The notes under the pieces: generated by a model
The model's input: the letters and a program-made list of their open reading frames with translations, nothing else
Told to the model about the DNA's origin: nothing
Database searches by the model: none
Translations under genes and position numbers: made by a program
Shown: positions 28,754 through 48,977 of the stretch, piece after piece
Position numbering within the stretch: the stretch's first letter is position 1
Layout of the letters: every line of letters begins with the position of its first letter
Source: Nocardioides bizhenqiangii
GTDB lineage: Bacteria > Actinomycetota > Actinomycetes > Propionibacteriales > Nocardioidaceae
NCBI RefSeq assembly: GCF_034661235.1
Contig: NZ_CP141059.1
Coordinates: 930,001-994,000 of the forward strand
Length of the DNA: 64,000 nt
Direction: 5' to 3'

Positions 28754-28844
28754 GGCGCCATCGTCCCAGAGCGGACGTCCCGACGGCTTCACCTGGCAGC
28801 CGTGGCGTGAAGCCGTGTTCCGCAAAGCCAGCCCATGCGTTTGG

Positions 28845-28900
28845 GTAACTCAAAGGCTACAGAAGTTGCAGTTGAGCGCAGTCGTCTTCGCGCCTACCTT
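28845..28900 (+). promoter_or_regulatory. LysR-box promoter of the aldo/keto reductase gene (site 3)
   Basis: GTAA at 28845, then 9 nt, then the T-N11-A box TACAGAAGTTGCA (28858-28870). -35 TTGAGC (28872-28877) starts 14 nt after the box begins, followed by a 17-nt spacer and -10 TACCTT (28895-28900). The same spacing is found in front of the amidase and ABC importer genes. Transcription would start about 26 nt before the ATG. Confidence 0.7.
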
Positions 28901-28932
28901 GCTTGGACAGTCAGAGCGAGGAAAGGCGAGCC

Positions 28933-29901
28933 ATGATCCAGGTCCCGTTGGGAACATCTGGTTGGGAAGTCAGCGAGTTCGTGTTCGGAGCCGGCTCGAT
29001 CGGCGGTGTCGGTACGTCATCCGCGACCCGCGGCAAGGGGATCAGCAGGGAGGAGGGCCTGGCCCGTCTCGACGAGGCGCGGGGATTCGGCATCACCCTC
29101 ATCGACACCGCGGACGCGTACGCTGGCGGCGAGAGCGAGCGGGTGGTCGGCGAGTGGCTCAAGGATCGTCAGCCGGACGATGTCCTCGTCTCCACGAAGG
29201 TCGGGCTGATCAGCCGGCCCGACGGTTCGCGTGCGATCGACAACTCTCCCGAGCACATCGAGAGAACCCTGAAGCAGAGTCTGGAGCGTCTCGGTCGGGT
29301 GGACCTTCTCCTTTCCCATGCCCCCGACCGTGAGACGCCGCTCGACGTCACCCTGGCCGCGTTCGCCAAGGCCCAGGAGTCGCGCTCCATCCAGGGATAC
29401 GGGGTCAGCAACGTCGACGCGGCTCGGCTGGTCGAGGTTCTCGAAACGGCTGATCGACTGCGACTGCCCAGGCCCGTCGTCATCGAGAACCGGCTGAACC
29501 TGCTGGACCGTGCCGACGAGGCCGAGCTGTTGCCGATCGCTCACAGCGAAGGAATCGGCTACACACCCTTCTCGCCGCTGGCGGGAGGCGTGCTGTCCGA
29601 GCGGTATCTCGACGGCGCCCCGCCTCCGCCCGACAGCCGGATCGCCGTCGCCGGTGAGATGTACTACCGGGGCTTCTACACGCCCGAGAACCTCGAGCGC
29701 GTGACCGCCCTGCGTGAGGTAGCGAGGGAGGTCGAGGTCGGTGTGTCTGCGCTGGCGCTCGCGTGGCTTCGGGACCACCCCTCGGTGACGGCGCCCATCA
29801 TCGCTCCGAGCACGTCGGCCCAGTGGGAGGCTGTCCGCGAGGCCGCCGTCGTCCGGGTCGAGGGAGACCTGCGCGACCGCGTCTCGGCCATCTTCGACTG
29901 A
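28933..29901 (+). CDS. Aldo/keto reductase
   Basis: A 322-residue NADPH-dependent oxidoreductase of the AKR superfamily. The tetrad is complete: D58 and Y63 in LIDTADAYAGGES, K89 in VSTKVGL, H129 in LLLSHAPD. The C-terminal cofactor region is IIAPSTSAQWEAVREAA. It reduces aldehydes or ketones to alcohols, or works in reverse; the substrate is unknown. GAGGAAAGG provides the ribosome binding site. Its promoter carries the same LysR box as the amidase and ABC importer operons, so it probably belongs to the same pathway. Confidence 0.92.
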   Translation: MIQVPLGTSGWEVSEFVFGAGSIGGVGTSSATRGKGISREEGLARLDEARGFGITLIDTADAYAGGESERVVGEWLKDRQPDDVLVSTKVGLISRPDGSRAIDNSPEHIERTLKQSLERLGRVDLLLSHAPDRETPLDVTLAAFAKAQESRSIQGYGVSNVDAARLVEVLETADRLRLPRPVVIENRLNLLDRADEAELLPIAHSEGIGYTPFSPLAGGVLSERYLDGAPPPPDSRIAVAGEMYYRGFYTPENLERVTALREVAREVEVGVSALALAWLRDHPSVTAPIIAPSTSAQWEAVREAAVVRVEGDLRDRVSAIFD

Positions 29902-29918
29902 GCCGGCGTAGTCGGGGC

Positions 29919-30830
29919 TTAGGCGGCCTCGCGTCCGAACAGCTCGTCGAAGGACTCGTGCATCTGGGAGCGGAACCAGGAGTGCGCCTTGTCGTTGGTG
30001 TAGCGCTCGTGCCAGGCGAGGTAGAGCGGGACCGGGGGCAGCTCGATCGGCAGCGCCCTGGTGCGCAGGCCCAGTGCTTCGATCGTCGCTCGGCAGACGT
30101 GTTCGGGTACGGCGACCACGAGGTCGGTGTGGCGCACGTAGTAGAGCCCTGCGGTGCTGGTGGGGGCGGAGGCCAGGACGCGACGGCTGAGCCCCTGTGC
30201 CGCCAGTGCCTCGTCGATCGGGTCGTGGAGGCGCCCGCGCCGCGAGACGATGAGGTGGCTGGCGCCGGCGAAACGCTTGGCCGTGAAGGCGCCTCGGACC
30301 AGTGGGTGATCCGCGCGCATGGCGACGACCAGGCGGTCGTGGCCGAGCAGGTCGGCGCGCACCTCCGGCAGCTCCGGTTCGTTGGAGCCCACCTCGAGGT
30401 CGACCCGGCCGTGGCGCAGGTCGTTGGTGTCTGCGCTCGCCTCGGCCAGCAGTCGCACCGAGACGCCCGGAGCGTGCGCCTGGACCACAGCCATGAGCCG
30501 GGGGCCGATGGCGGTCGTGACCGCGTCGTGGCCGCGGATCGTGAAGATCCGCTCCAAGGAGTCGAGATCCAGCTCCCGTTCCGCCTGGAGCACGTCCCGC
30601 GCGCGCTGCACGAGGTCGTGCACCTCGGCGCGCATCTCCGTAGCTCGCGGAGTGGGCGTCATCGTGCGGCCGGTCCGCACGAGGATCTGGTCGCCCGTCG
30701 CCCGCCTGATCCGTCCCAGGGTGCGACTCATCGCCGGCGCGGAGAGGTGCATCCGTTGAGCCGCGCCGGCCACGCTCCCCTCTTCGAGCAACGCGTCGAG
30801 GGCCGTCAGCAGGTTCATATCCAATTGCAC
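29919..30830 (-). CDS. LysR-type regulator of the amide-catabolism island
   Basis: A 303-residue LysR-family activator. The N-terminal winged HTH is LTALDALLEEGSVAGAAQRMHLSAPAMSRTLGRIR. The C-terminal periplasmic-fold ligand domain starts around residue 85 (RIFTIRGHDAVTTAIGPRL) and belongs to the NodD/DntR/NahR-like branch, which senses aromatic acids. GTG 30830 is chosen over the frame's first ATG (30893) and over ATG 30818 because a TAGATT -10 lies 7 nt upstream; that -10 lies within the LysR-box region, which suggests autorepression. It is divergent from the first amidase and likely controls three promoters. Confidence 0.88.
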   Translation of the reverse strand: MQLDMNLLTALDALLEEGSVAGAAQRMHLSAPAMSRTLGRIRRATGDQILVRTGRTMTPTPRATEMRAEVHDLVQRARDVLQAERELDLDSLERIFTIRGHDAVTTAIGPRLMAVVQAHAPGVSVRLLAEASADTNDLRHGRVDLEVGSNEPELPEVRADLLGHDRLVVAMRADHPLVRGAFTAKRFAGASHLIVSRRGRLHDPIDEALAAQGLSRRVLASAPTSTAGLYYVRHTDLVVAVPEHVCRATIEALGLRTRALPIELPPVPLYLAWHERYTNDKAHSWFRSQMHESFDELFGREAA

Positions 30831-30890
30831 GTGGGTAAATCTACGACTAGCAAGGTTGCACTGGCAAGACATCGTCGTCCGCTCTACGTT
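30831..30890 (+). promoter_or_regulatory. LysR-box promoter of the amidase operon (site 1)
   Basis: GTGGGTAA (30831-30838), 9 nt, then TAGCAAGGTTGCA (30848-30860), a T-N11-A box with GCAA/TTGC symmetry. -35 TGGCAA (30862-30867) starts 14 nt after the box begins, then a 17-nt spacer and -10 TACGTT (30885-30890). The poor -35 fits a promoter that needs an activator. Confidence 0.75.
30838..30843 (-). promoter_or_regulatory. -10 box of the leaderless LysR gene, within the LysR-box region
   Basis: Minus-strand TAGATT followed by 7 nt and GTG 30830. It overlaps the GTAA-N9 part of the shared box, so a bound LysR protein would block its own promoter. Confidence 0.6.
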
Positions 30891-30920
30891 CAAGCCATCA
30901 CACAGCGAGAGCGAGGGGCG

Positions 30921-32357
30921 ATGGAGATCTGGCAGCTCACAGCGACCGAGGTCGCCGGTGCCGTTCGTACCGGCGTCGTTTCCGCGGAGGAGGTCACGCG
31001 GTCAGCTCTCGACCGGGTGGCTGCCGTGAACCCCGCGGTCAACGCCCTGGTCGAGATCCGCGAGGAGGCGATCGAGGAAGCTCGTCACGCGGACGAGCTC
31101 CGCAGGCGTGGTGAGCCGGTCGGGACGCTGCACGGGTTGCCGGTGACCTCCAAGATGAACACCAACGTAGAGGGCCTGCCGACGACCGACGCGGTCGCGG
31201 CCTACGCGGACCACGTCGCCCCCGAGACCGACCCTCAGGTGGCGAGCCTGCTCTGTGCCGGCGCCATCCTGATCGGTCGCACGAACTGCCCGCCGTTCGC
31301 CACTCGTTGGACGACGGAGAGCGATCTCTACGGCGCCACGATCAACCCGCTTGCTCCAGGAGTCACGCCCGGCGGGTCGAGCGGTGGTGCCGCGGCGGCG
31401 GTGGCCACAGGGATGGGGGTCCTGGCGCAGGGCAATGACATCGGCGGCTCGCTGCGCTATCCGGCGGCGTGCTGCGGTGTCATTGGCCTGCGCCCAAGCC
31501 CCGGGCGGATCCCGGGCTGGGCCGGGCCGGTCGCGTTCGACCCCCCGATGGCCTACCAGGCGTTCGTCGAGCAAGGGCCGATCGCCCGCACCGTCGCCGA
31601 CGTCCGTCTGGGGTTGACCGCGATGGAGGCGTACGACCCCCGGGACCCCCGCGCGGTCGCCAGCGTCAGCCGCATCCCGGCCGGCTCCGGCCTGCCGCGG
31701 GTAGGTGTCCTCACCGACCCGGGTGGCGGCGGCCTCCGCGGATCGTCGACACCAGCGAGTGTGGCCGCCACCCGCCGCGCCGCCGCGTGGTTGGCTGAGG
31801 CCGGCTACGAGGTCGAGGAGGTCGAGCAACCGATCTTCGGTGACGCCTCTCGTCTGTGGTGGGAGCTGGCGCTGACGGAGTTCGCGATCGCGGTCCGGGC
31901 GGAGGTCGCGCGGGTCGGCGAACCAGGCTACCGACGCTTCTTCGACTACATGTACAACGTCTACGAGCAGGAGTTCGGTGATGTCGACCTGTCGCAGTTC
32001 GTCGCCGGCTGGGCGAAGCGCGGCAGGCTGCGCCGGGAGATCTCGGTGTTCATGGATCGCTATCCGCTGATCCTCACACCGGTGTCGGGCGAACCGCCGT
32101 TCCCGATGGGGGCGGACGCGGAGAGCGTGGACCGGCTGGCGGAGATCATGAGCCATCAGTGGCCGTCGATGTCCGTGCCGACCCTCGGTCTGCCGGCTCT
32201 CGGCATGCCGGCCGAGCTTCCGGCCGACGCTGCCCCGCTGGGCGTGCAGATCGTCGGCCGGCCGTTCGAGGACGAGGCGGTGCTCACTGCCGGCGAGGTC
32301 GTCGAGGCCCGGCTCGGGCTCTCGCGTCCCGTGGATCCCCGGCAGGGAGACCGCTGA
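30921..32357 (+). CDS. Amidase-signature hydrolase (first of two in the operon)
   Basis: A 478-residue amidase-signature enzyme with the complete Ser-cisSer-Lys triad: K78 in LPVTSKMNTN, the cis-Ser S154 in TPGGSSGGAAAA, and the nucleophile S177 in GNDIGGSLRYPA. It hydrolyses an amide bond, releasing ammonia or an amine and a carboxylate. The motif variant VTSKMNTN (instead of VKDN) sets it apart from the second amidase. It starts an operon of four genes (gap of 1 nt to the next). GAGGGG is the ribosome binding site. Nothing in the sequence tells the substrate. Confidence 0.92.
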   Translation: MEIWQLTATEVAGAVRTGVVSAEEVTRSALDRVAAVNPAVNALVEIREEAIEEARHADELRRRGEPVGTLHGLPVTSKMNTNVEGLPTTDAVAAYADHVAPETDPQVASLLCAGAILIGRTNCPPFATRWTTESDLYGATINPLAPGVTPGGSSGGAAAAVATGMGVLAQGNDIGGSLRYPAACCGVIGLRPSPGRIPGWAGPVAFDPPMAYQAFVEQGPIARTVADVRLGLTAMEAYDPRDPRAVASVSRIPAGSGLPRVGVLTDPGGGGLRGSSTPASVAATRRAAAWLAEAGYEVEEVEQPIFGDASRLWWELALTEFAIAVRAEVARVGEPGYRRFFDYMYNVYEQEFGDVDLSQFVAGWAKRGRLRREISVFMDRYPLILTPVSGEPPFPMGADAESVDRLAEIMSHQWPSMSVPTLGLPALGMPAELPADAAPLGVQIVGRPFEDEAVLTAGEVVEARLGLSRPVDPRQGDR

Positions 32358-32358
32358 C

Positions 32359-33228
32359 GTGGCAACCGAGCGGACGCCGGAGACACAGCTCGACACGGAG
32401 GACAGCGGCGACGCCGGCCTGTTGCCGGACATGGCCGCCGCGATCAAGGCCGCCGGCGCCGCGATGGTCGAGCGGACGACCGAACGCCCGGACTTCCGGA
32501 CCCGTTCAGACGTGGTGCGAGCGATCTACGACAACGACGACGCCTCCCTCGCGCTGCTGAGACCGCGCCTGAGCAGCCTCCGCCCGGATGCGGGTTGGGT
32601 GGACGACGAGCTCGAGAGCGGTCTGCTGCCACCGGGTGAGTGGTGGGTGACCGACCCGGTGGAGGGAAACATCAATCACGCGCACGGTCTCCCGGACTGG
32701 GGCGTCACCGCGACCCTGGTCCGCGACAACGTCCCGGTCGCCACCGCTGTCCACCTGCCGCTCACCGACGAGACCTACGTGGCTGCGGTCGGCCATGGCG
32801 CCCGCGTCAACGGCCGGCCCCTGGTGCCGTCGGCGAAGCGCGAGCTCAATGCGGCGATGGTCGGCACCGGCCAGGCAGCCCCCGGCGAGTCGGCCGCGAC
32901 GTTCGACCGCATCGGCACGTCCGTGACCGTGATGCTCAACCGGAGCATGGTGCTCCGGGTCTCCGTGCCGGCAACCCTCCAGCTGCTCCAGGTGGCTGCC
33001 GGGCGGATGGATGCGTTCTGGCAGTTCAGCCAGGTGCGCTCCGGGCTGCTCGCCGGTGCGCTGATCGTCGCCGAGGCCGGGGGAGTCGTGTCGGACACCC
33101 GCGGCCGGCCGTGGGACCTCGGGAGCCCGGACTTCCTGGCGACCACGACCCACCTACACGAAGCGGCCGTTGCCGCCCTGTCCACCGTGGACCGGATCTC
33201 GTACGACGACCGACCGACCCCTACCTGA
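32359..33228 (+). CDS. Inositol-monophosphatase-like protein with altered metal site
   Basis: A 289-residue protein of the IMPase fold. The motif usually read DPIDGTTNF is WWVTDPVEGNINHAHGLPDWGV here, with Asp-to-Glu and Thr-to-Asn changes. The usual WDxAAG metal-ligand segment near the C-terminus reads SGLLAGALIVAEAGGVVSD, which lacks the Asp. At least one metal ligand is therefore lost, so a normal Mg-dependent phosphatase is doubtful. The protein starts at GTG 32359, right after the amidase stop codon, and is co-transcribed with both amidases. Its role in amide catabolism is unknown. Confidence 0.75.
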   Translation: MATERTPETQLDTEDSGDAGLLPDMAAAIKAAGAAMVERTTERPDFRTRSDVVRAIYDNDDASLALLRPRLSSLRPDAGWVDDELESGLLPPGEWWVTDPVEGNINHAHGLPDWGVTATLVRDNVPVATAVHLPLTDETYVAAVGHGARVNGRPLVPSAKRELNAAMVGTGQAAPGESAATFDRIGTSVTVMLNRSMVLRVSVPATLQLLQVAAGRMDAFWQFSQVRSGLLAGALIVAEAGGVVSDTRGRPWDLGSPDFLATTTHLHEAAVAALSTVDRISYDDRPTPT

Positions 33229-33239
33229 AGGAGAAACCC

Positions 33240-33878
33240 ATGACCACCATCGCGATCCTCGGCACCGGCCGGGTGTCCCGCACGCTCGCCACCGCCCTCC
33301 TGGGCGCCGGCCACCAGGTGTTGATCGGCAGTCGGGACGCCGAAGCCGCCCGGGCCGGATGGGCAGGCACCGGTGTGACCGTGACCGACGTCGCCGACGC
33401 GGCCGGCAGCGCCGACGTCGTCGTCAACGCAACACCAGGGGACTCTTCCGTCGAGCGGTTGAGCGAGCTGCGTGCGGAGCTTGCCGGGAAAGTGCTGCTC
33501 GACGTCGCCAACGCCTCGGCGCGCGGCGCCGACGGAATGCCGACGGGGCTCCTCTACCCGGGTGAGAGCCTCGGCGAGCGGCTGCAGAGCGCACTCCCGG
33601 AGTCGAAGGTCGTCAAGGCCCTCAACACCATGCTGTTCCCCGTCATGGGCGCACCGGACAGCCTGTCCACGCCGGTCACCGTGTTCGTGTCCGGAGACGA
33701 CGATGCCGCCAAGCAGGTCGTCACCGGCCTGCTCACCGACCTCGGTTGGAAGCCCGACCTGATCCTCGACCTCGGCGGGATCAAGTCCGCGCGCGCCCCG
33801 GAGGCTGCGGTCGAGATCGTGCCCGCCGTGCTCAGGGCACGGGGCATGGTGCCCTTCGCGATCACTGTCGTCGGATGA
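33240..33878 (+). CDS. NADP-binding protein, F420-dependent NADP reductase (Fno)-like
   Basis: A 212-residue Rossmann protein starting TTIAILGTGRVSRTLATALLGAGHQVLIGSRD. The GxGxxxxxLA pattern and the Ser-Arg phosphate-binding pair after strand 2 suggest NADP(H). It contains NATPGDSSVERLSELRAEL, VVKALNTMLFPVMG and a C-terminal segment DLGGIKSARAPEAA, all in the order of Fno/ProC-like NADP oxidoreductases. AAGGAG lies 7 nt before the ATG. Its stop overlaps the second amidase start (ATGA). It may reduce an intermediate of the pathway. Confidence 0.8.
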   Translation: MTTIAILGTGRVSRTLATALLGAGHQVLIGSRDAEAARAGWAGTGVTVTDVADAAGSADVVVNATPGDSSVERLSELRAELAGKVLLDVANASARGADGMPTGLLYPGESLGERLQSALPESKVVKALNTMLFPVMGAPDSLSTPVTVFVSGDDDAAKQVVTGLLTDLGWKPDLILDLGGIKSARAPEAAVEIVPAVLRARGMVPFAITVVG

Positions 33879-35236
33879 GCGTCCCGCTCGATGTCGCTGC
33901 CGCGTCCCTCGAGGCCTGGGCGGGTGCCAGTGATCACCGGCGGGACGCCGGACTGCAGGAGGCCGGCCGACAGGCCGCCCGAGCGGCCGAGACGCACGGC
34001 GCGTTCATCACCGTTGCGCAGGACGTCGGCTCCCCTTCCGCCGGCGAGCTGCGCGGGGTGCCGATCGCGGTGAAGGACAACATCGACGTGGTCGGTCTGC
34101 CGACGACGGCCGGAAGCCCGCTCCTTCGCGGCTACCTGCCCGAGGTGGACGCGAGCGTCGTCGCCGCGCTCAAGGAGGCGGGCGCCGTCGTCGTGGGCAA
34201 GACCAACATGCACGAGCTCGCCTTCGGCATCACCTCGAACAACGCGGAGTTCGGTCCGGTGCGCAACCCGGTGGACAGGTCGCGGGTCGCCGGCGGCTCC
34301 AGCGGTGGCAGCGCGGCGGCGGTGGCCCTGGGCGTCGTCCCCGTCAGTCTCGGCACGGACACCGGCGGCTCGGTGACGATCCCCGCGGCGTTCTGCGGCG
34401 TCGTCGGCTTCCGCCCGACGACCGGTCGCTACCCGGGAGACGGCGTGGTGAACCTGTCATGGACCCGCGATTCAGTCGGGATCCACGGGCGCACCGTGCG
34501 AGACGTACGCGCGCTGGACCGCGTGATCGTCCGTGACGCCGACGAGGACGGTACGCCGCTGAACCGTCTGGTCCTCGGCGTGCCTCGCTCCAGGTACGAG
34601 GGCCTCGACGAAAGGGTCGCCGCCGCCTGCGAGCAGGGGCTCGAGGCGCTGGCCGCCAGCGGCGTGCAGCTGGTGGACGTCGAGGTACCCGACGATCTCC
34701 AAATCGGGAACGGCGCGGGGCTGGGAATGGTGCTCTTCGAAGCGGAGCGCACCATCCGGTGGCGCGCCGCCGGCTCCGAGGGCGGCGAGCGGTTCCGCAC
34801 GTTCGCCGACATCGTCGAGCACGTCGCGTCCCCCGACGTGCGTCGCCTCGCCGAGATGATCGTGTCCGAGCCCTTCGCGCCCGAGTCGTACGAGCAGGCC
34901 CGTCGGTCCCGGCTTTCCCTTCGCCGGGGCTACGCCGACATGTTCCGCACGACCGGCGTGCACGCGCTCGTCGCTCCTGCCGTTCCCGTGACCGCCCCTC
35001 CGATCGGTGCCGACGACGTCATCGACGTGAACGGCGAGGAGCTGCCGACCTTCCCGACGATCACCCGCAACACCGCTCCCGGAACCGTCGCCGGCGTTCC
35101 GATGCTCACGCTCCCTCTCGGGCGCCTCCCCACCGCGCTGCCGGTTGCGCTCACGTTCGAAGGCGCATTCGCGTCTGACGTGGAGCTGCTTGCGGTCGGC
35201 GAACGCCTGGAGCAGGTGCTGCTCCAACGCGGGTGA
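33875..35236 (+). CDS. Amidase-signature hydrolase (second), AtzE/indoleacetamide-hydrolase-like
   Basis: A 453-residue amidase with the standard triad: K67 in GVPIAVKDNIDVVG, S143 in GGSSGGSAAAVAL, and S166 in GTDTGGSVTIPAAFCG. The motifs are closer to the canonical GatA/AtzE/mandelamide-hydrolase pattern than those of the first amidase in the same operon. It overlaps the previous gene by 4 nt. Two different amidases in one operon could act on successive amide bonds of one compound. It converges with the crotonase gene, with a 41-nt gap between stops that holds no clear terminator. Confidence 0.92.
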   Translation: MSVPLDVAAASLEAWAGASDHRRDAGLQEAGRQAARAAETHGAFITVAQDVGSPSAGELRGVPIAVKDNIDVVGLPTTAGSPLLRGYLPEVDASVVAALKEAGAVVVGKTNMHELAFGITSNNAEFGPVRNPVDRSRVAGGSSGGSAAAVALGVVPVSLGTDTGGSVTIPAAFCGVVGFRPTTGRYPGDGVVNLSWTRDSVGIHGRTVRDVRALDRVIVRDADEDGTPLNRLVLGVPRSRYEGLDERVAAACEQGLEALAASGVQLVDVEVPDDLQIGNGAGLGMVLFEAERTIRWRAAGSEGGERFRTFADIVEHVASPDVRRLAEMIVSEPFAPESYEQARRSRLSLRRGYADMFRTTGVHALVAPAVPVTAPPIGADDVIDVNGEELPTFPTITRNTAPGTVAGVPMLTLPLGRLPTALPVALTFEGAFASDVELLAVGERLEQVLLQRG

Positions 35237-35277
35237 CGGTCATCGTCTCCGGACCGATCGGATTCACGGCCCCGACG

Positions 35278-36063
35278 TCATCGAGCGGTGTAGACCGGCT
35301 CGCGGTCCTCTTGCATGGCCGCGAGCCGCTCGGCGAAGTCGGCGCTGCCGATCAATGAGTACATGGCCGGGAGCAGCTCGCCGTAGACGTGGTGCGCGGC
35401 TCCCTCGTAGGCGCGGCGGCCGATGCGCAGCGTCTCCCGTACGGCGAGGGGTGGGTGGGCGGCGATCACCGCAGCGAGCTCCTGTGCTCGCTCGACCTGG
35501 CGACCTGCCGGCACCACCTCCTGGACCAGCCCCAGACGCAAGGCCTCCTCGGCCGGCCAGTCCTCGGCGGTGAGCAGCCACCGCATGGCGTTGCCCCAGC
35601 CGACCTCGAGCGGCATCCGTACGCTGGCGCAGCCGGCAGGCGTCGTACCTCGGCTGACCTCGCCCTGACCGAAGCAGGCATCGTCCGCCGCGATCCTGAG
35701 GTCCGCAGCCAGGATCAGCTCGTGGGCCATCGCACCCACAGTTCCCTGCACGGCCGCGATCAGCGGCTTGGAGAGCCGGGACGACGTCCCGAAGGGATTG
35801 ATCCGCCCCGGGGCGTCCAGGCTGAACAGGCGCTTCTGCAGCGCCGGGAGGAAGGCGTTCGGGTCCAGTCCGACGGAGAAGTCGGCTCCGGCGCCGCTCA
35901 GCACCACGACCCGGACATCGCTGTCGTGCTCGGCCCGGTGGTAGGCCTCGCCGAGGGCGGCGAAGGTGTCCGGGTCGATGGCATTGGCGTGCTCCGGGCG
36001 GTGCAGCTCGACGGTCGCGACGTGCGCGGCGGATTGGTAGCGGATGGTGCGGGCCTGCTTCAT
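35278..36063 (-). CDS. Enoyl-CoA hydratase/isomerase family protein (crotonase)
   Basis: A 261-residue crotonase. The oxyanion-hole segments are SGAGADFSVGLDP (in place of the usual AGGDxxE) and AAVQGTVGAMAHELILAADLRIA. The acidic position after the second strand is in FGQGEVSRGTTPAGCASVRMP. The family hydrates, isomerises or hydrolyses acyl-CoAs. Together with the PaaK-type ligase encoded downstream it could process the CoA ester made by the island. It is read away from the ABC importer, with which it shares a 254-nt region containing LysR site 2. GGGAG lies about 10 nt before the ATG. Confidence 0.88.
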   Translation of the reverse strand: MKQARTIRYQSAAHVATVELHRPEHANAIDPDTFAALGEAYHRAEHDSDVRVVVLSGAGADFSVGLDPNAFLPALQKRLFSLDAPGRINPFGTSSRLSKPLIAAVQGTVGAMAHELILAADLRIAADDACFGQGEVSRGTTPAGCASVRMPLEVGWGNAMRWLLTAEDWPAEEALRLGLVQEVVPAGRQVERAQELAAVIAAHPPLAVRETLRIGRRAYEGAAHHVYGELLPAMYSLIGSADFAERLAAMQEDREPVYTAR

Positions 36064-36207
36064 GGGGGTTGTCTCCCTGATCAGTCGGCTGCCGCCGGAC
36101 CGGCGACGTAGTCAAGGTAGGGACTACGGATCACCCAACTCAACTGCATGTCTGATAGCGGAAGAGTTACTGCGATGCATTCCAGATGGCAGCGGACTCG
36201 AGTGCGT

Positions 36208-36267
36208 GTGAGTAATCCATTCGATAGCAACGTTGCACTGGCGTATCACTGCCGGCGTACCTACCGT
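36208..36267 (+). promoter_or_regulatory. LysR-box promoter of the ABC importer/ligase operon (site 2)
   Basis: GTGAGTAA (36208-36215), 9 nt, then TAGCAACGTTGCA (36225-36237), a perfectly symmetric T-N11-A box. -35 TGGCGT (36239-36244) starts 14 nt after the box begins, then 17 nt and -10 TACCGT (36262-36267). The pattern CACTGGC after the box is identical to site 1. Confidence 0.75.
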
Positions 36268-36317: not shown

Positions 36318-37139
36318 ATGGCTACGGCGTACCGGCAGCACTCGACAGGACTCTCGGGCGGCGCGGTCGACGCCGAGCCGTCGATCGTGGTGCGCGATCT
36401 CGGCAAGACCTTCGACAACGGGGTCCGGGCGATCTCGAGTGCCACGCTGCACGTGGCGTCCGGAGAGTTCGTCTCCATCGTCGGTGAGAGCGGCTGCGGG
36501 AAGTCGACCCTGCTCCGGATCGTGGCCGGCCTGACCCCGCCGAGCGACGGCAGCGTCGAGGTGAGCGGGACGCGGGTCGTCGGTCCGAGGCGAGACGTCG
36601 GCCTGATGTTCCAACGGCCGGCTCTGCTGGACTGGAAGACCGCACTCGAGAACGCGCTCCTGCCGGTCGGGATCCATCGGCGGGTCACCCGGGCCGACGT
36701 CAGCGAGGCGATGGGGCTCCTGGAGCTCTTCGGGCTGAAAGGTTCGGAGTTCCGGTTCCCTCGTCAGCTCTCCGGCGGCATGCAGCAGCGCGTGGCGCTG
36801 GCGCGGTTGCTGATGACTGGCGCCCAGGTCCGTCTCCTGGACGAGCCGTTCGGCGCGGTCGACGAGCTCACCCGCGAGCACCTGAACGTGGAGCTGCTCC
36901 GCATCCACGATCTCGACGTCTCCGCGACGCTGCTGGTCACGCACAACATCACCGAGGCGGTGTTGTTGTCGGACCGCGTGATCGTGATGGGGCCCCGCCC
37001 TGGCCGGGTCGTCGGCGACATCGCGGTGAACCTGCCTCGTCCTCGCTCGGCCGAGACAACCCAGTCGCAGGAGTTCCAGCGCCTGGTCGGAGCGGTCCGC
37101 GCGCGGCTGGTCGAGGACAGCAACGGAGGGGCGGCATGA
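36318..37139 (+). CDS. ABC importer ATPase, SsuB/TauB type
   Basis: A 273-residue ATPase with Walker A GESGCGKSTLLR (about residue 58), signature LSGGMQQRVALARLL, Walker B VRLLDEPFGAVDELTRE and the switch His in LLVTHNITEAV. The C-terminal VIVMGPRPGRVVGDIAVNLPRPR is typical of nitrate/sulfonate/taurine/pyrimidine-precursor importers. It starts with GGGGAC upstream of the ATG and overlaps the permease gene by 4 nt. It energises uptake of the pathway substrate, probably a small anion or amide. Confidence 0.92.
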   Translation: MATAYRQHSTGLSGGAVDAEPSIVVRDLGKTFDNGVRAISSATLHVASGEFVSIVGESGCGKSTLLRIVAGLTPPSDGSVEVSGTRVVGPRRDVGLMFQRPALLDWKTALENALLPVGIHRRVTRADVSEAMGLLELFGLKGSEFRFPRQLSGGMQQRVALARLLMTGAQVRLLDEPFGAVDELTREHLNVELLRIHDLDVSATLLVTHNITEAVLLSDRVIVMGPRPGRVVGDIAVNLPRPRSAETTQSQEFQRLVGAVRARLVEDSNGGAA

Positions 37140-38080
37140 GCGTCGACACCGTTCCGAGCAGCCGCGGAGCCAAGGCCCGCGAGCGGATCGTGGCCCCGGT
37201 CGTATTCCTCGGCGTGCTCCTTCTCGCGTGGCACCTGGCCACCTCCCAGGATTGGGTGAGCTCTCTCGTGCTCCCTCCGCCCAAGGACGTCGTGGTCTCG
37301 ACGTACGAGCTGTTCGAGACCGGCCTCATCTGGGAACACCTCTTCGCAACCCTCTACGAGACCCTCGCCGGTTTCGCTCTCGCCGCATCGGTGGCGCTCA
37401 TGCTGGCACTCGCCGCAGGTTGGTCGACGCTGCTCCGCAACATGATCCAGCCCTATGCGGTCGTGCTCCAGGTGATGCCGATGCTGTCGCTGGCGCCGAT
37501 CATCATCTCCACGTTCGGGTTCGGGTATCAGTCCAAGATCGTCGTGGCCGCGCTCATCTCGTTCTTCCCGGTGTTCGTCAACACCCTCACCGGACTCCTC
37601 CTCCCCGATCCGCAGGAGGAAGAGCTGTTCCGTTCCCTCGGCGCCGGTCGGGCCAAGACGTTCAGGTACGTGCTGATGCCCACGGCAGCGCCGCTGATCT
37701 TCGCCGGACTGCGGATCGGCCTCACGCTCGCCCTTGCCGGCGCCATCGTCGCGGAGTTCGTGTCAGCCCAAGTCGGCCTGGGGCTGCTCGTGCAGCGGTT
37801 CAGCTACCAGCTCAACCTCGACGATGCGTTCGCGGTCATCTTCGTGCTGACGGCGATGGGGCTGGCGCTCTACGGGCTGATCGCCCTGGTCGGACATCTC
37901 GTCGTGTTCTGGCGACGCGAGGCAGCGCTCAACCGGCGGAGCGCCGCCCGGATGCGGCGCTACCAACGACGCATCGGAGGCGGGGTCGCGCCTGCCGTCG
38001 AACCGGCAGCGGTGCCGGACACACGGTCGTACTCGGGTGGAAACCACGAGAACCCAACCCAACTGGAGGCGAAACGATGA
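37136..38080 (+). CDS. ABC importer permease, SsuC/TauC type
   Basis: A 314-residue permease with six helices. The coupling region EEELFRSLGAGRAKTFRYVLMPTAAPLIFAGLRIG is a clear EAA-type loop, and LQVMPMLSLAPIIISTFGFGYQSKI precedes it, as in SsuC. A long charged C-terminal tail of about 60 residues (RRSAARMRRYQRRIGG) is longer than usual. It overlaps the ATPase and binding-protein genes by 4 nt each, so all three are made together. Confidence 0.9.
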   Translation: MSVDTVPSSRGAKARERIVAPVVFLGVLLLAWHLATSQDWVSSLVLPPPKDVVVSTYELFETGLIWEHLFATLYETLAGFALAASVALMLALAAGWSTLLRNMIQPYAVVLQVMPMLSLAPIIISTFGFGYQSKIVVAALISFFPVFVNTLTGLLLPDPQEEELFRSLGAGRAKTFRYVLMPTAAPLIFAGLRIGLTLALAGAIVAEFVSAQVGLGLLVQRFSYQLNLDDAFAVIFVLTAMGLALYGLIALVGHLVVFWRREAALNRRSAARMRRYQRRIGGGVAPAVEPAAVPDTRSYSGGNHENPTQLEAKR

Positions 38081-39165
38081 CAGCCACGAAGGCGCGACGG
38101 ACAGGAGCGGTGATCGGGATGATCACGCTCGCCGCTACTTCGCTCGCAGCGTGCAGCGACGGGTCCGGGGGAGCGGCAACGGAGAGCGGCAGCGTGCGCG
38201 TCGCCAGCCCAGCGCCGGACTCGCTGTTCACCTACAACGAGATGGTGGCCCGCGAGCTCGGCTTCTACGCGGACGAGGACCTCGAGGTCGAGCTGGTCGC
38301 GCTGTCCGATGCCATCCCGGCAGCGGCACTGGTCCAGAACGGTGAGGCCGATGCCGCGCTGATCTCTGCCACGGACGCGCTGGCGGCCGCCTCGAAGGCG
38401 GAGGACCTCCGACTCGCGTACGACGAGCGCACCGGCGGTACCGACTTCATCTACGGGATCGTCGTGCCTTCCGAGAGCGGCATCGAGGACCTCACCGAGC
38501 TCGAGGGGGAGAACATCGGCCTTGCCTCTCCGGACCAGGATCTCGCTCTCCTCGCGTCGGCGCTCGAGCAGGTCGACATGACGCTCGACGACGTCGAGAC
38601 CACGGTGGTCGGCCCGGGTGGATCGTCGGTCGCCGAGTCGCTGCGTTCCGGCCGGATCGCGGGGTACGCCGGCACCCTTCAGGACTTCGCGGCCTTCGGG
38701 GATGCGGGACTCGAGGTTGACAACATCCTCCCGGAGGGGCTGGAGGGACTACCGGTCGGCGGCTACGTGACCACCACCAGCACGCTCGAGGCCGACGACG
38801 ACATGGTCAAGTTCCTGCGGGCGCTCGCCAAGGGCACGTACGTCGCGCTCGAGCGACCGGAGATCGCAGCGCTGGTCACCCAGGAAGGTGCGCCGGAGCA
38901 GTGGCGTGAGCCCGAGGTCGCCGAGTTCCTTCTCGAGGGCCTGGCAGCGACCCTCGTGCCCTTCGACGGCGAGACCTTCGGCGAGATCAAGACAGACCGA
39001 TGGCAGAACGCCCAGGACCTCCTGATCGAGGTCGGCGTCATGGACGACCCGGCCGACCTGGACGTGCTCCTGGACGACGACCTGATCGAGGAGATCAACG
39101 ACTGGGACCGTGAAGAGGTGCTTGCCCGTGCAGACGAGTGGCTCGCCGAGCACGGGGCCTCCTGA
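38077..39165 (+). CDS. Solute-binding lipoprotein, NMT1/THI5 (SsuA-like) type
   Basis: A 362-residue lipoprotein with a signal peptide ending in the lipobox LAAC (about residue 27: ITLAATSLAACSDGSGG). The mature part has VRVASPAPDSLFTYNEMVARELGFYADEDLEVELV and AAALVQNGEADAALISATDALAAA, the order seen in NMT1/THI5-like receptors. It feeds the SsuBC-type transporter. GGAGG lies 8 nt before the ATG. The very acidic C-terminal third (many Asp/Glu) is unusual for the family. The ligand is unknown and is predicted here to be an amide or related carboxylate. Confidence 0.88.
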   Translation: MTATKARRTGAVIGMITLAATSLAACSDGSGGAATESGSVRVASPAPDSLFTYNEMVARELGFYADEDLEVELVALSDAIPAAALVQNGEADAALISATDALAAASKAEDLRLAYDERTGGTDFIYGIVVPSESGIEDLTELEGENIGLASPDQDLALLASALEQVDMTLDDVETTVVGPGGSSVAESLRSGRIAGYAGTLQDFAAFGDAGLEVDNILPEGLEGLPVGGYVTTTSTLEADDDMVKFLRALAKGTYVALERPEIAALVTQEGAPEQWREPEVAEFLLEGLAATLVPFDGETFGEIKTDRWQNAQDLLIEVGVMDDPADLDVLLDDDLIEEINDWDREEVLARADEWLAEHGAS

Positions 39166-40521
39166 GTGATGGTCGGGGACGTGAGCACCGACCGCCCCGC
39201 CGGGAAGGCCAGGTTCGCACCGCCCGCGCAGGAGGAGCTCGACCCCGCCGAGAGGATGGGTCGGGACGAGCTCGAGGCGCTGCAGCTAGAGCGGTTGCGC
39301 GACGTCGTCACCCACGCGTACCAGCACGTAGCGCCCTACCGGGTGAAGCTGGACGCGGCCGGAGTCTCGCCCGCTGAGATCCGGAGCCTCGACGACGTAC
39401 ACCGGCTCCCCTTCACAACGAAGGAGGATCTGCGCGTCACCTACCCGTTCGGCATGTTCGCCGTGCCCATGGAGCGGATCGCGCGGATCCACGCATCGTC
39501 CGGGACGACGGGACGGCCCACCGTGGTCGGCTACACCTCGGCCGATCTCGACACCTGGGCCTCGCTGATGGCGAGGTCCCTCAGGGCCGCGGGCGTGCGC
39601 CCCGGAATGATGGTGCACAACGCCTACGGCTACGGCTTGTTCACCGGAGGACTGGGCGCGCACGCCGGCATCGAAGCGCTGGGTGCGACGGTCGTGCCCG
39701 CGTCCGGTGGGCAGACCGCCCGACAAGCCCAGATGATCGAGGACTTCGCACCACAGGTGGTGCTGTGCACGCCGACGTACCTGCTCACCCTCGCCGACGC
39801 GCTCGAGGAGCGCGGTGTGGACCCTCGCTCGACGAACCTACGTGTCGCAGTCCTCGGCGCCGAACCGTGGACGAACGAGATGCGGGAGGAGCTCGAGACG
39901 CGCCTCGACCTGGACGCCGTCGACATCTACGGACTCAGCGAGGTGATGGGACCCGGGGTCGGGAGCGAGTGCATCGACACGAAGGACGGGCCGCACCTGT
40001 GGGAGGACCACTTCCTCCCTGAGGTGGTCGACCCGGTCACGGGCGAACCGGTCCCGGACGGGGAGCGGGGAGAGCTGGTGCTCACGACGCTGACCAAGGA
40101 AGCGTTCCCTGTGCTCAGGTACCGCACCCGCGACCTCACCCGGTTGCTGCCGGGCACGGCGCGACCGGCCATGCGACGGATCGAGAAGATCACGGGACGC
40201 AGCGACGACATGATCATCCTGCGCGGGGTCAACCTCTTCCCGACCCAGGTGGAGGAGCTGGTCCTGGCCGCGCCCGGTCTCGCTCCTCACTATCTCCTCG
40301 AGCTCACCCGCAGGGGAAAGCTGGACCACCTCACCGTCTGCGTGGAGCCCTCCAGCGGGCGGCCCGCGGACCCCGACGCGGCCGCGGAGGCTGAGGCTCT
40401 GGTGCGCCGGGTCAAGGACAGCATCGGGGTCTCGGTCGAGGTGCGGTTGGAGGAGCCGGGAGCTCTGCCGCGCAGTGAGGGGAAGCTGCAGCGGGTCCGC
40501 GACCTACGGGCGTCGACCTGA
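39166..40521 (+). CDS. paaK: Phenylacetate-CoA ligase family protein (PaaK-like)
   Basis: A 451-residue (450 from the ATG) AMP-forming CoA ligase. It has the P-loop SSGTTGRPTVVGYT, then YGYGLFTGGLGAHAGIEALGATVVPASGG, the ATP-binding DIYGLSEVMGPGVGSEC and the C-terminal lysine region LPRSEGKLQRVRDLR. Together these are the full PaaK order. It activates phenylacetate or another aryl carboxylate to its CoA ester. Candidate starts are GTG 39166, ATG 39169 and GTG 39181; the SBP stop is directly before the first. It is the only PaaK-type gene in the window and lies 8 kb from the paa operon, which has none. The true substrate may be the acid released by the amidases. Confidence 0.88.
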   Translation: MMVGDVSTDRPAGKARFAPPAQEELDPAERMGRDELEALQLERLRDVVTHAYQHVAPYRVKLDAAGVSPAEIRSLDDVHRLPFTTKEDLRVTYPFGMFAVPMERIARIHASSGTTGRPTVVGYTSADLDTWASLMARSLRAAGVRPGMMVHNAYGYGLFTGGLGAHAGIEALGATVVPASGGQTARQAQMIEDFAPQVVLCTPTYLLTLADALEERGVDPRSTNLRVAVLGAEPWTNEMREELETRLDLDAVDIYGLSEVMGPGVGSECIDTKDGPHLWEDHFLPEVVDPVTGEPVPDGERGELVLTTLTKEAFPVLRYRTRDLTRLLPGTARPAMRRIEKITGRSDDMIILRGVNLFPTQVEELVLAAPGLAPHYLLELTRRGKLDHLTVCVEPSSGRPADPDAAAEAEALVRRVKDSIGVSVEVRLEEPGALPRSEGKLQRVRDLRAST

Positions 40522-40524
40522 CCG

Positions 40525-41244
40525 ATGAGCGTCCTCGTCGTCGAGCACGTGCCCTGGGAGCCGGCCGGCCGCATCCACATGCAGTGCCTCGCCGAGGGCC
40601 TCGACGTGCGCACGGTCAACGCGTTGCGAGGCGACCGGTTCGGCGAGGTGGAATCGCTCGCCGGCGTGGTGGTCATGGGTGGGCCGATGCGTGCCACCGA
40701 CTGGCGAAACCACCCGCGCCTGGAGGACGAGGTGGCGCTCCTACGGGATGCGGTCACGGCGGACGTTCCGTGTCTGGGGATCTGCCTCGGGCACCAGCTG
40801 CTCGCCCTCGCCTGCGGAGGCTCACTGGAGACCGCCCAGACGGCAGAGATCGGTGTCGCACCGGTCGAGGTCATGGCTGAGTCGGTCCTCGGGCGGGTCG
40901 GTGACCGCGTCGATGTACTCCACTGGCATGCGGACGTGGTGTCGTTGCCGTCGGGCGCCGACCTGCTGGCACGGTCCGACCAGTGCGAGAACCAGGCCTT
41001 TCGGCTGGGGTCTGCCGTAGGCCTTCAGTTCCACCTCGAGGTCGACCAGGCGTTGTTCGCCCGCTGGCTCAGCGTTCCCGAGATGGCGGCCGAGCTGCCC
41101 GCGGGGATCGACCACGAAGCCGCTCTGAGAGCTGCGGAGCCGACCATGGCCGAGCTCGCGCGGATGGTCTTCTCGGACTTCACCTCCCGAGCTTCCGCCC
41201 GGGCCGGTCAGCTGAGTCAGTCGGGACCCGCGAGCACCGACTGA
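40525..41244 (+). CDS. Class I glutamine amidotransferase / gamma-glutamyl hydrolase-like protein
   Basis: A 239-residue type I glutamine amidotransferase domain standing alone. The nucleophile is C87 in PCLGICLGHQLLALACGG, and the other triad members are H170 and E172 in GLQFHLEVD. Such stand-alone domains hydrolyse glutamine or gamma-glutamyl compounds, or serve as GuaA-like amidotransferases. It is the last gene of the importer/ligase operon (3-nt gap). An ammonia- or glutamyl-handling role would suit an amide pathway; this is inference. Its 3' end overlaps the convergent SRPBCC gene by 28 nt. Confidence 0.85.
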   Translation: MSVLVVEHVPWEPAGRIHMQCLAEGLDVRTVNALRGDRFGEVESLAGVVVMGGPMRATDWRNHPRLEDEVALLRDAVTADVPCLGICLGHQLLALACGGSLETAQTAEIGVAPVEVMAESVLGRVGDRVDVLHWHADVVSLPSGADLLARSDQCENQAFRLGSAVGLQFHLEVDQALFARWLSVPEMAAELPAGIDHEAALRAAEPTMAELARMVFSDFTSRASARAGQLSQSGPASTD

Positions 41245-41666: not shown

Positions 41667-41772
41667 GCGGTTGGCGTGCATTCCGGTAACGCCTGGGCGT
41701 GCCGAAAGCGCAGTTCCGGAGGGATGGCACGGACGCCTACGGTGGATCCACTCCCAGCACGAGAGGTTTCCC

Positions 41773-42393
41773 ATGAAGATCGCCGTCCTCGGCGCAACCG
41801 GTGGAGTCGGTCGCGAGGTCGTCAGCCAGGCACTCGACCAGGGCCATGACGTGGTCGCGGTCTCGAGGCACGCAGCGGAGGCGCTGGACCTCGAGCCCGG
41901 CGACCTTCTGCACAAGGTCTCAGCCGACGTCACAGAGCCTGCGGCAGTGGCCGAGGCGATCAGTGGTTGTGACGCGGTCATCGGGACGTTGGGCGTGTCC
42001 CGCGGCGAGGAGCCGGGCGTCCTCACGGCGGGGGCCCGCTCGCTGATCGCGGCGAACCCCAAGCGGGTCGTGTGGTTGGGGGCCTACGGCACCGGCGCCT
42101 CGGCCGAACGAGCGGGCGCCCTGACCCGCGCCGTCCTGAAGCTGGCGATGAAGGGCGAGCTGCCCGACAAGGAGGCCGCCGACAAGCAGGTGCTCGACGC
42201 GGGAGGCATCGTCCTGCACTCGGGACCCTTCAAGAACGGTGCGATGAGTCCCTCCCACCGCGCCGTCCCGCTGCAGGACGCACCGCACCGGCTCTTCCCG
42301 GCACGGGTGGCCCGGGCCAGCGTTGCCGCCTGCCTGCTGGAAGCCGCAGCCGCCCCCGCCACTGCCGGGGTGCTGGTCCCACTCGAGAGCTGA
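41773..42393 (+). CDS. NAD(P)H-binding atypical SDR
   Basis: A 206-residue Rossmann protein starting KIAVLGATGGVGREVVSQALDQGHDVVAVSR (GxxGxxG). It continues with ADVTEPAAVAEAISGCDAVIGTLG and the Trp-Leu-Gly-Ala-Tyr segment VVWLGAYGTGAS, as in the NAD(P)H-binding (PF13460-like) proteins related to biliverdin and flavin reductases. The classical SDR Ser-Tyr-Lys triad is not complete. The substrate is unknown. AGAGG lies about 8 nt upstream of the ATG, with a possible TACGGT -10 at 41738. Confidence 0.8.
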   Translation: MKIAVLGATGGVGREVVSQALDQGHDVVAVSRHAAEALDLEPGDLLHKVSADVTEPAAVAEAISGCDAVIGTLGVSRGEEPGVLTAGARSLIAANPKRVVWLGAYGTGASAERAGALTRAVLKLAMKGELPDKEAADKQVLDAGGIVLHSGPFKNGAMSPSHRAVPLQDAPHRLFPARVARASVAACLLEAAAAPATAGVLVPLES

Positions 42394-42888: not shown

Positions 42889-43019
42889 GTGTCTCGTCCT
42901 CGTGGGTCGGCGTGCGGTGCTTCTGGACGAACGGCACATCTTCGAGGCGTCCGTGTAGACATCTTCTCGCATTTCTGTCGCCAGTGGAATCCAGTTGGCA
43001 TCCGGAGGAGGCTGAGTCC

Positions 43020-44108
43020 ATGACAGGTGATCTGGACCTCATGCCATCGGACACGCCGGTCCAGCTGATCGACCCGTCCGGACGCGCGACCGGCCGCGAG
43101 GGCTTCGCCGTCCCTGGCGACGCGGCGTTGCTCCGGGCGTACGGCGCCCTGGTCGCCGCACGTCGGCTCAACGACCAGGCCTACGCGCTGGTGCGGCAGG
43201 GCCGGCTCGCGGTCTACCCGTCGTCCCACGGGCAGGAGGCCTGCCAGGTGGCCGCGGCGCAGGTGCTCGACGACGAGGACTGGCTCTTCCCGACCTACCG
43301 CGACACCGCCGCCATCGTCGCCCGCGGCGTCGACCCGGTCGAAGCACTCGTGCTCCTCAAGGGCGACTGGCACTCCGGCTACGACCCCTACGCGAAGAAG
43401 GTCGCGCCGCAGGCGACCCCGCTGGCCACCCAGCTGCCGCACGCGGTCGGGGTCGCCCATGCCGCCAGGCTGCGTGGTGAGTCGACGGTGGTGATGGCGC
43501 TCTGCGGCGACGGGGGGACGAGCGAGGGCGACTTCCACGAGGCGCTCAACTTCGCCGCCGTCTTCCGGGCACCCGTGGTCTTCTTCGTGCAGAACAACGA
43601 GTACGCCATCTCCGTCCCGCTCTCCCGGCAGACGGCCGCCCCGTCGATCGCTCACAAGGGCGTCGGGTACGGCGTCCCCGGCGAGCGCGTCGACGGCAAC
43701 GACGTCGCGGCGCTGCTGGCTGTCCTCGGCGACGCCGTCGCCCGCGCTCGGGCCGGCGAGGGCCCGCAGCTGGTCGAGGCGCACACCTACCGCATCCAGG
43801 CCCACACCAACGCCGACGACGCCACGCGCTACCGCCGGGACGAGGAGGTCGCCGCCTGGGCCGGCCGCGACCCGATCCTCCGGATGGGGGCCTACCTGCG
43901 CGAGCACGACCTGCTCACTGACGAGCAGGCGACGGCGTACGCCGAGGCCGCCGACGAGGTCGCCTCCCACACCCGCGACGGACTCAACACCGACGTCTCG
44001 CCGAGGCCCGACGACCTCTTCGACCACGTGTACGCCCGCCGCACCCCGCAGCTGAAGGAGCAGGCCGCCATGCTCGCCGACGAGCTGGCCAGGGAGGTCG
44101 CGCGATGA
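43020..44108 (+). CDS. bkdA: Branched-chain 2-oxoacid dehydrogenase E1 alpha
   Basis: A 362-residue thiamine-diphosphate-dependent E1 alpha subunit. The ThDP motif GDG...NN is clear (CGDGGTSEGDFHEALNFAAVFRAPVVFFVQNN), as is the phosphorylation-loop-like RIQAHTNADDATRYR. It decarboxylates branched-chain (or pyruvate-like) 2-oxoacids and passes the acyl group to E2. GGAGGAGG lies 9 nt before the ATG. It is followed by the beta and E2 subunits with 4-nt overlaps and no E3. An Lrp gene is divergent. Pyruvate dehydrogenase is the alternative, but the Lrp neighbour favours branched-chain substrates. Confidence 0.88.
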   Translation: MTGDLDLMPSDTPVQLIDPSGRATGREGFAVPGDAALLRAYGALVAARRLNDQAYALVRQGRLAVYPSSHGQEACQVAAAQVLDDEDWLFPTYRDTAAIVARGVDPVEALVLLKGDWHSGYDPYAKKVAPQATPLATQLPHAVGVAHAARLRGESTVVMALCGDGGTSEGDFHEALNFAAVFRAPVVFFVQNNEYAISVPLSRQTAAPSIAHKGVGYGVPGERVDGNDVAALLAVLGDAVARARAGEGPQLVEAHTYRIQAHTNADDATRYRRDEEVAAWAGRDPILRMGAYLREHDLLTDEQATAYAEAADEVASHTRDGLNTDVSPRPDDLFDHVYARRTPQLKEQAAMLADELAREVAR

Positions 44109-45091
44109 CGCACGAGAAACTCACGATGGCGCAGGCCCTCAACCGCGCACTGCGCGACGCTCTCGCCGAGGACCCCTCCGTCCTGGTCTTCGGGGAGGAC
44201 GTCGGACCGCTTGGCGGCGTGTTCCGGATCACCGACGGGCTGACGGCCGAGTTCGGCGACGACCGTTGCTTCGACACCCCCCTCGCCGAGTCCGGCATCG
44301 TCGGCATGGCGGTCGGCCTGGCGATGAACGGCATGCGGCCGGTCGTCGAGATGCAGTTCGATGCCTTCGCCTACCCCGCCTTCGAGCAGGTCGTCAGCCA
44401 CGTCGCCAAGCTCCGCAACCGCACCCGCGGCAAGGTCAGCGTGCCGATCGTGATCAGGGTGCCGTACGCCGGCGGCATCGGCGGCGTCGAGCACCACTGC
44501 GACTCCTCGGAGGCCTACTACGCCCACACCCCCGGTCTGCACGTGCTGGCGCCGGCGAACGCCGCCGACGCCTACGGCCTGCTGCGCGAGGCGATCGCCT
44601 CGCCCGATCCGGTCGTCTTCCTCGAGCCCAAGAAGCTCTACTGGGCAAAGGACGAGGTCGATCTCGCAGCCCCCGTCCCGGGCGTCGGCAAGGCGGCGGT
44701 GGTGCGCGAGGGCACGGACGCGACCCTGATCGCCTACGGCCCCTCGGTCCCCACCGCGCTGGACGCCGCCGAGGTCGCTGCCCAGGAGGGCCGCAGCCTC
44801 CAGGTCGTCGACGTCCGGTCGATCGTGCCGTTCGACGACGCGACGGTCTGCGACGCGGTCCGCTCGACCGGCCGCGCCGTCGTCGTGGCCGAGGCGGCCG
44901 GGTTCGCCAGCGTCTCGTCCGAGATCGTCGCCCGGGTCACCGAGCGGTGCTTCCACTCCCTCGCCGCTCCGGTCCGACGGGTCACCGGCTTCGACATCCC
45001 CTACCCACCGCCCAAGCTCGAGCACCTCCACCTGCCCAGCGTCGACCGGATCCTCGACGCCGTGGACGACCTGCAGTGGGAGCACTCATGA
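44105..45091 (+). CDS. bkdB: Branched-chain 2-oxoacid dehydrogenase E1 beta
   Basis: A 328-residue transketolase-like beta subunit. It has VLVFGEDVGPLGGVFRITDGL at the N-terminus, DTPLAESGIVGMAVGLAMNGMRPVVEMQF in the pyrimidine-binding domain, and the C-terminal transketolase domain with DVRSIVPFDDATVCDAV and GFDIPYPPPKLEHLHLP. It forms the alpha2-beta2 E1 with the preceding gene. Both junctions are ATGA overlaps, showing tight translational coupling. Confidence 0.9.
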   Translation: MTHEKLTMAQALNRALRDALAEDPSVLVFGEDVGPLGGVFRITDGLTAEFGDDRCFDTPLAESGIVGMAVGLAMNGMRPVVEMQFDAFAYPAFEQVVSHVAKLRNRTRGKVSVPIVIRVPYAGGIGGVEHHCDSSEAYYAHTPGLHVLAPANAADAYGLLREAIASPDPVVFLEPKKLYWAKDEVDLAAPVPGVGKAAVVREGTDATLIAYGPSVPTALDAAEVAAQEGRSLQVVDVRSIVPFDDATVCDAVRSTGRAVVVAEAAGFASVSSEIVARVTERCFHSLAAPVRRVTGFDIPYPPPKLEHLHLPSVDRILDAVDDLQWEHS

Positions 45092-46793: not shown

Positions 46794-46799
46794 ACGCTA
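46794..46799 (-). promoter_or_regulatory. -10 box of a leaderless promoter (NIPSNAP gene), containing the paaZ stop codon
   Basis: Minus-strand TAGCGT followed by 6 nt and GTG 46787. Its first three bases are the TAG stop of paaZ, the same economy as at 1097-1102. Confidence 0.55.
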
Positions 46800-48860: not shown

Positions 48861-48926
48861 GGTTCGCAACCTTTCGATCCGGGTGGGGGCGCGCCGTTGC
48901 GCGACCCGGGATGCGTGTGTCACAGT

Positions 48927-48951
48927 ATTACAGACCGTTCGGTCAGTAAAT
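48927..48951. promoter_or_regulatory. TetR-type operator between paaZ and paaA (copy B)
   Basis: A 25-bp sequence centred on GACCG-TT-CGGTC (48933-48944), with flanks ATTACA and AGTAAAT. It matches copy A at 41642-41666 at 22 of 25 positions. The position between divergent start codons fits control of both the paaZ and paaABCDE transcripts. The half-site resembles the ACCG...CGGT core I recall for actinobacterial PaaR sites. Confidence 0.7.
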
Positions 48952-48977
48952 AGGTCTCAGCTGCCTCGGAGGTACTC

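Follow-up and report, generated by a model that had tools for sequence, protein, structure and literature searches.

A LysR-type regulator encoded beside the phenylacetate catabolic cluster of Nocardioides bizhenqiangii probably controls four promoters through one two-part site, whose spacing to the promoter is nearly constant in sequences from its relatives. The gene (29919..30830, minus strand) lies in a stretch of 64,000 nucleotides of contig NZ_CP141059.1 (positions 930,001 to 994,000), here called the window, and all coordinates below refer to it. According to the whole explanation, to which we assign a probability of about 0.86, this LysR would bind a two-part operator before four transcription units, activate them, repress its own gene and respond to an inducer of the phenylacetate type. 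An original prediction had described three such promoters with a shared T-N11-A box; all three are present, but the count is four, the additional site lying on the minus strand (36180-36114).

Pattern scanning and alignment placed the recognition half of site 1, ATGCGTTTGGGTAA (TGC-N6-GTAA), at 28835..28848 and its activation half, the T-N11-A box TACAGAAGTTGCA, at 28858..28870 on the plus strand, followed by a promoter at 28872..28900 with a -35 of TTGAGC (28872-28877), a 17-nt spacer and a -10 of TACCTT (28895-28900). Site 2, on the same strand and located in the same way, consists of the recognition half TTGCACGTGGGTAA (30825..30838), which holds the LysR start codon, the activation half TAGCAAGGTTGCA (30848..30860) and a promoter at 30862..30890 (-35 TGGCAA, 17 nt, -10 TACGTT). 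Site 3, again on the plus strand and found by pattern scan and alignment, has its halves GTGCGTGTGAGTAA and TAGCAACGTTGCA at 36202..36215 and 36225..36237 and its promoter at 36239..36267 (-35 TGGCGT, 17 nt, -10 TACCGT). The original prediction was accurate in these respects: the boxes start at 28858, 30848 and 36225 with a GTAA 13 nt upstream of each, and at all three a -35 begins 14 nt after the box start and is followed by a 17-nt spacer and a TANNNT hexamer. Of these three -35 hexamers, those at sites 2 and 3 are weak. Site 4 (36114..36180, minus strand), absent from that prediction, was found with two mismatches at start 36180 by scanning for TTGC-N6-GTAA-N16-GWTGCA, and it precedes an enoyl-CoA hydratase gene. 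Pattern and profile scans place its recognition half ATGCATCGCAGTAA at 36180-36167 and its activation half TATCAGACATGCA at 36157-36145, with the promoter at 36143-36114 (-35 TTGAGT at 36143-36138, 18 nt, -10 TACCTT at 36119-36114). Sites 3 and 4 stand back to back with their recognition halves 21 bp apart.

The extended element reads TGC-N6-GTAA, N9, a T-N11-A box ending in TGCA, 1 nt, the -35, 17 nt and TANNNT. GTAA and the box had been proposed as the whole motif; both are there, but the element extends 10 nt further upstream of GTAA, and TGC lies precisely 6 nt 5' of GTAA at each of the three originally predicted sites in the alignment. The box is indeed of LysR type, but it reads as just the activation half of a two-part operator, with GTAA as the right arm of an upstream recognition half. 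Assuming that transcription starts 7 nt beyond the -10, T2-N11-A14 is centred near -65 and T24-N11-A36 near -43, and with these inferred positions the layout is that of a LysR-type operator with a recognition site and an activation site. The recognition T2-N11-A14 occurs at 4/4 window sites and at 39 of the 40 tallied sites, which were chosen with a pattern already holding recognition-half letters and for which -65 is deduced from the predicted -10. The activation T24-N11-A36 adjoining the -35 is found at 4/4 window sites and 28/40 tallied sites, and the 12 lacking it are the LysR-side sites of loci L006-L017. Among 25 aligned sites, no variation is seen at T24, T38, G40 and T66, which are absent from the scan pattern, or in TGC, GT-A and TGCA, the latter being constant partly by selection as their letters lie within the picking pattern. 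The TA of the -10 falls at position 61 in 24 of the 25, the exception being window site 4, where it comes one base later. This predicted anatomy fits the recognition and activation sites of LysR-type regulators, placed near -65 and near -35 in two published accounts (PMC4730206, PMC11602165). Identity among the three originally predicted sites is 0.56-0.61 within the 66-nt element and just 0.21-0.30 in the flanks, so they did not arise by duplication of a longer segment. Site 4 compared with the other window sites gives 0.44-0.53 inside (the extra base not being allowed for) and 0.19-0.34 outside; against site 3 the upstream identity is 0.50, over a flank common to both.

The LysR gene begins with a GTG within the recognition half of site 2, a start that aligns with those of its relatives, and its product passes the cut-offs of HTH_1 (PF00126, 53.3 bits against 26.6) and LysR_substrate (PF03466, 99.3 against 28). 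Its predicted leaderless promoter (30838..30867, minus strand) has a -10 of TAGATT at 30843-30838 and a -35 of TTGCCA at 30867-30862, the latter occupying the same bases as the amidase -35 TGGCAA of the opposite strand. This -10 had been said to overlap the box; it extends instead over the final base of GTAA and into the 9-nt spacer, not the box at 30848-30860. In 23/23 LysR-side sites, positions 4-6 of the element, taken on the opposite strand, form the LysR start codon, with an ATG also readable there in 4/17 other sites, and a TANNNT suited to LysR stands at positions 14-19 or 15-20 in 14 of the 23 LysR-side sites versus none of the 17 others; therefore operator, leaderless -10 and start codon appear superimposed. 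By sequence, the operator thus overlaps the regulator's own predicted promoter, an arrangement expected of an autoregulated LysR-type gene. The left arm of the recognition half, TTGCAT, gives on its opposite strand the Met-Gln start of the predicted leaderless LysR mRNA. Actinomycetes of several families show this superposition, as does a contig that binning assigned, perhaps wrongly, to the Chloroflexota; in two Burkholderiales loci (L018, L019) the LysR start carries TTGC-N6-GTTA but the remainder of the element is missing. That the high-affinity operator half and the LysR start codon are one and the same sequence, kept across groups, is put forward tentatively and with rather more doubt than conviction.

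LysR relatives were collected by scanning genome contigs, which gave 20 loci, L004-L019 with 52-64% and L020-L023 with 32-34% identity. Hosts of L004-L017 (54-64% identical) are actinomycetes and one Chloroflexota bin, and here the element is located at the LysR start or before a neighbouring gene, with only the upstream half at the start in 12 of these 14. The full element covers the LysR start in L004, L005 and L036-L040. In L006-L017 the upstream half stands alone at the LysR start and a full copy precedes a homologue of the window gene 41767-42393 in 12/12 (PF13460 membership being taken from L008 only); these LysR-side sites keep the recognition T-N11-A in 11/12 and the activation T-N11-A and -10 in 0/12. 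The window gene 41767-42393 itself has no site before it in pattern and profile scans of the genome. A third copy is present in L011 and L016, preceding an FAD-binding monooxygenase-like gene in L011, a homologue of which occupies the corresponding position in L016. Pattern scanning did not find the full element in L018 and L019, and L084 has no TANNNT at the expected place. Relatives with the motif have in common a nearly identical helix, PAMSRTLGRIRR and variants, which we take to be the recognition helix; the helix differs in L020-L023, where the motif with up to two mismatches occurs in 0/4 loci, and the L020 and L022 genomes give no match at E<=1 to profile R1 (described below). The best pattern match in L041-L043 (46-52% identical) has three mismatches. 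Five loci with LysR at about 46-52% identity (L042, L054, L073, L074 and L077) have a window-like activation half and -10 with a recognition half that is different by eye, which suggests that the two halves evolve separately.

The LysR gene was detected in one of 198 family genomes (the organism's own; E<=1e-60), in 4/391 order genomes and in 8/396 phylum genomes (both E<=1e-70), which makes it rare in the groups around its host, as sampled here. Profile R1, built from 21 sites including the four in the window, matched seven of the 396 phylum genomes at E<=0.01, namely 6 of the 8 with LysR versus 1 of the 388 others (the same genome handles being used where listed, and the motif search having stricter filters). 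That other genome, G280, has a partial match (E 0.0055) and no LysR, and two LysR genomes of this sample (G557 and G565) have no R1 match. Because 9 of the 21 training sites came from those six genomes, the three later-found order genomes are the fair test, and each of the three held-out genomes with LysR gives one R1 match (E<=1) at the LysR start, with E values of 3.7e-11, 2.8e-9 and 1.5e-5 and a -10 at 17 nt in two. Across 18 named genomes at E<=1, R1 returned 24 matches in 15 genomes, 16 at known sites and 8 at new places. Six of the new ones adjoin a LysR homologue (five, 44-51% identical) or a remnant of one (one, E 2.9e-10) and two (L069 and L078) have neither alongside; six of the eight are weak (E 0.018-0.46). 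In Streptomyces pseudovenezuelae (L070), a second pair of IMPase and oxidoreductase genes carries a full operator with only a short LysR remnant alongside. Sequence evidence thus establishes that the element exists with this spacing, is conserved and is associated with this LysR, and the comparative data support the proposal of a LysR regulon with a shared operator at a fixed promoter spacing.

Within its own genome the motif is sparse, with three exact and four profile matches instead of the hundreds of promoters that would have spoken against a regulon. R1 at E<=10 returns exactly four matches, the four window sites. Profile R3, from the 17 non-window sites, returns two at the same threshold, window sites 2 and 4 (E 0.07 and 0.23), and does not recover sites 1 and 3. 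Profile R2, from the three originally predicted sites, finds at E<=1 three sites in 28 related loci (548,533 bases), all LysR-linked, and misses other known sites; with three matches in 28 loci it was rejected as a general model, being over-fitted.

The genes behind the four sites look fit to import, hydrolyse and CoA-activate an aromatic compound. Unit 1 would be the aldo/keto reductase (28933..29901, plus strand, PF00248) predicted from site 1. The predicted site 2 operon, on the plus strand, starts with amidase A (30921..32357, PF01425) and continues with an inositol-monophosphatase (IMPase)-family protein (32359..33228, PF00459), an NADP/F420-type oxidoreductase family protein (33240..33878, PF03807) and amidase B (33875..35236), whose best NCBIfam match is indoleacetamide hydrolase at 444.7 bits, below the cut-off of 532. 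The predicted site 3 operon (36318..41244, plus strand) has five genes, an ABC ATPase (36318-37139), a permease (37136-38080), an NMT1/SsuA-type binding protein (38077-39165), the phenylacetate-CoA ligase PaaK (39166-40521; score 647.1 bits, cut-off 646.3) and a class I glutamine amidotransferase (40525-41244). Unit 4 would be the enoyl-CoA hydratase family gene (35278..36063, minus strand, PF00378) predicted from site 4. The phenylacetate catabolic (paa) island extends over 46797-56013, with thiolase, hydratase and dehydrogenase genes after the paa genes; genes at 46797-52786 exceed the NCBIfam cut-offs of PaaZ, PaaA, PaaC, PaaD and PaaE, and none of the island genes carries the LysR motif in the R1 scan of the genome. 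Beside the island are keto-acid dehydrogenase-like genes (42912-46446), the first of which narrowly passes TIGR03181 (pyruvate dehydrogenase E1 alpha; 417.7 against 411.35), the other two being judged from their translations only. The regulated enzymes suit such a compound and lie beside paa, which makes an aromatic acid or amide the probable inducer and one of the phenylacetate type the most likely substrate and inducer.

Most related loci have an IMPase-family homologue oriented divergently from LysR. In this protein and its homologues from 16 loci, the second Asp of DPxDG is changed to E or G in 17/17, and the later WD Asp is replaced in 12/17 by eye, being kept in L037-L040 and L086. Both Asp residues are presumably catalytic in the IMPase family, and this LysR-adjacent member may not be an ordinary phosphatase.

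From these data we infer binding, activation, autorepression, transcription start sites, operon limits and inducer as follows. One dimer of a LysR tetramer would occupy the recognition half (TGC-N6-GTAA, about -65). Next to the -35, the other would occupy the activation half (T-N11-A, about -43) and help RNA polymerase once a phenylacetate-type aromatic acid or amide is bound. At site 2 the end of the predicted leaderless LysR -10 and the start codon both lie within the recognition half, and autorepression is predicted because LysR bound there would block its own gene.

Other origins of the shared sequence fare less well. Chance and duplication were rejected, on Markov and composition expectations and on flank identity respectively. 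GTAA-N9-TA-N5-GTTGCA occurs three times in the 4,546,893-base genome, always in the window (reversed control 0), against 0.028 per genome expected from base composition and none in 300 first-order Markov sequences built from the window, rarity figures that are post hoc, the three sites themselves having supplied the pattern; when a longer pattern is allowed three mismatches, these three sites alone are again returned. A chance three-way match from a long, AT-poor window gains something from this after-the-fact reading, and GTAA-N9-T-N11-A alone occurs 4 times in the window versus 0.8 expected, but other genomes, three of them outside training, also have the extended element at this LysR, and chance is scarcely credible. 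It is in related genomes that independent support for the element is to be sought and, by sequence comparison, is found.

Conservation of the -35 side and the -10 (mostly TANCGT) could also mark a promoter class, for example that of an alternative sigma factor, instead of an operator. Conservation nevertheless reaches position 1, 60 nt 5' of the -10, and falls into two blocks separated by about two helical turns; 11/12 LysR-side sites of L006-L017 keep the upstream block without the promoter, and four profile matches per genome are few for a sigma class, all of which makes this reading very improbable. Somewhat less improbable, though still unlikely, is that the element belongs to another regulator encoded elsewhere and that lysR is one target among others, since the motif is tied to the protein through sequence and its sites also precede genes other than the one divergent from LysR. 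Against this, the motif accompanies this LysR in the phylum sample, stands at the LysR start in all three held-out genomes and lies at LysR homologues or a remnant in six of eight further new matches, and two T-N11-A boxes near -65 and -43 are a LysR-type layout. Control by the adjacent LysR remains the preferred reading.

The closest known counterparts of the protein lie on the DntR/LeuO side of the LysR family. Its best solved-structure match is 2esn (probable transcriptional regulator, 143.2 bits); 2uye/1utb (LysR-type regulatory protein), which we take to be DntR, also match, and LeuO 6gz1 follows further down at 42.5 bits. It is nevertheless distinct from these solved members, scoring 143 bits at most, and none of the 25 LysR NCBIfam profiles listed (of 39 matched) reaches its cut-off. 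The best among the matches listed is BsrA of Pseudomonas aeruginosa, at 155.5 bits against an equivalog cut-off of 480, far from membership. The operator halves are placed like those given for LysR-type regulators in the DntR paper (PMC4730206). BsrA is likewise a LysR-type protein with T-N11-A boxes, but binds 765 regions by ChIP-seq (PMC8407307), compared with four sites for profile R1 in the Nocardioides genome. ThnR, the LysR-type activator of tetralin genes, acts at several promoters through sites that include two close, divergent and cooperating ones (PMC4834489), and sites 3 and 4 standing back to back resemble that pair. Unlike the ThnR pair, their recognition halves are 21 bp apart, and ThnR activates its own transcription and needs ThnY (PMC4834489), whereas autorepression is predicted for the window LysR.

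In the open-licence PMC literature we recognised no description of this LysR, its motif or such a regulon. The system adds a clear new case to a familiar class of gene switches, and the mechanism itself is textbook. For an uncharacterised LysR subfamily the analysis supplies a defined operator, a set of targets and a likely field of substrates (amides or acids of the phenylacetate type), all of which can be tested. A single genome with four natural promoters of almost identical spacing is well suited to asking how rigid the geometry of recognition site, activation site and promoter is in LysR-type activation. If the superposition of operator and start codon is true, the bound protein would cover the promoter end and the start codon at once, and the four promoters, with nearly one geometry, would be a ready system for testing the spacing rules of LysR-type regulators.
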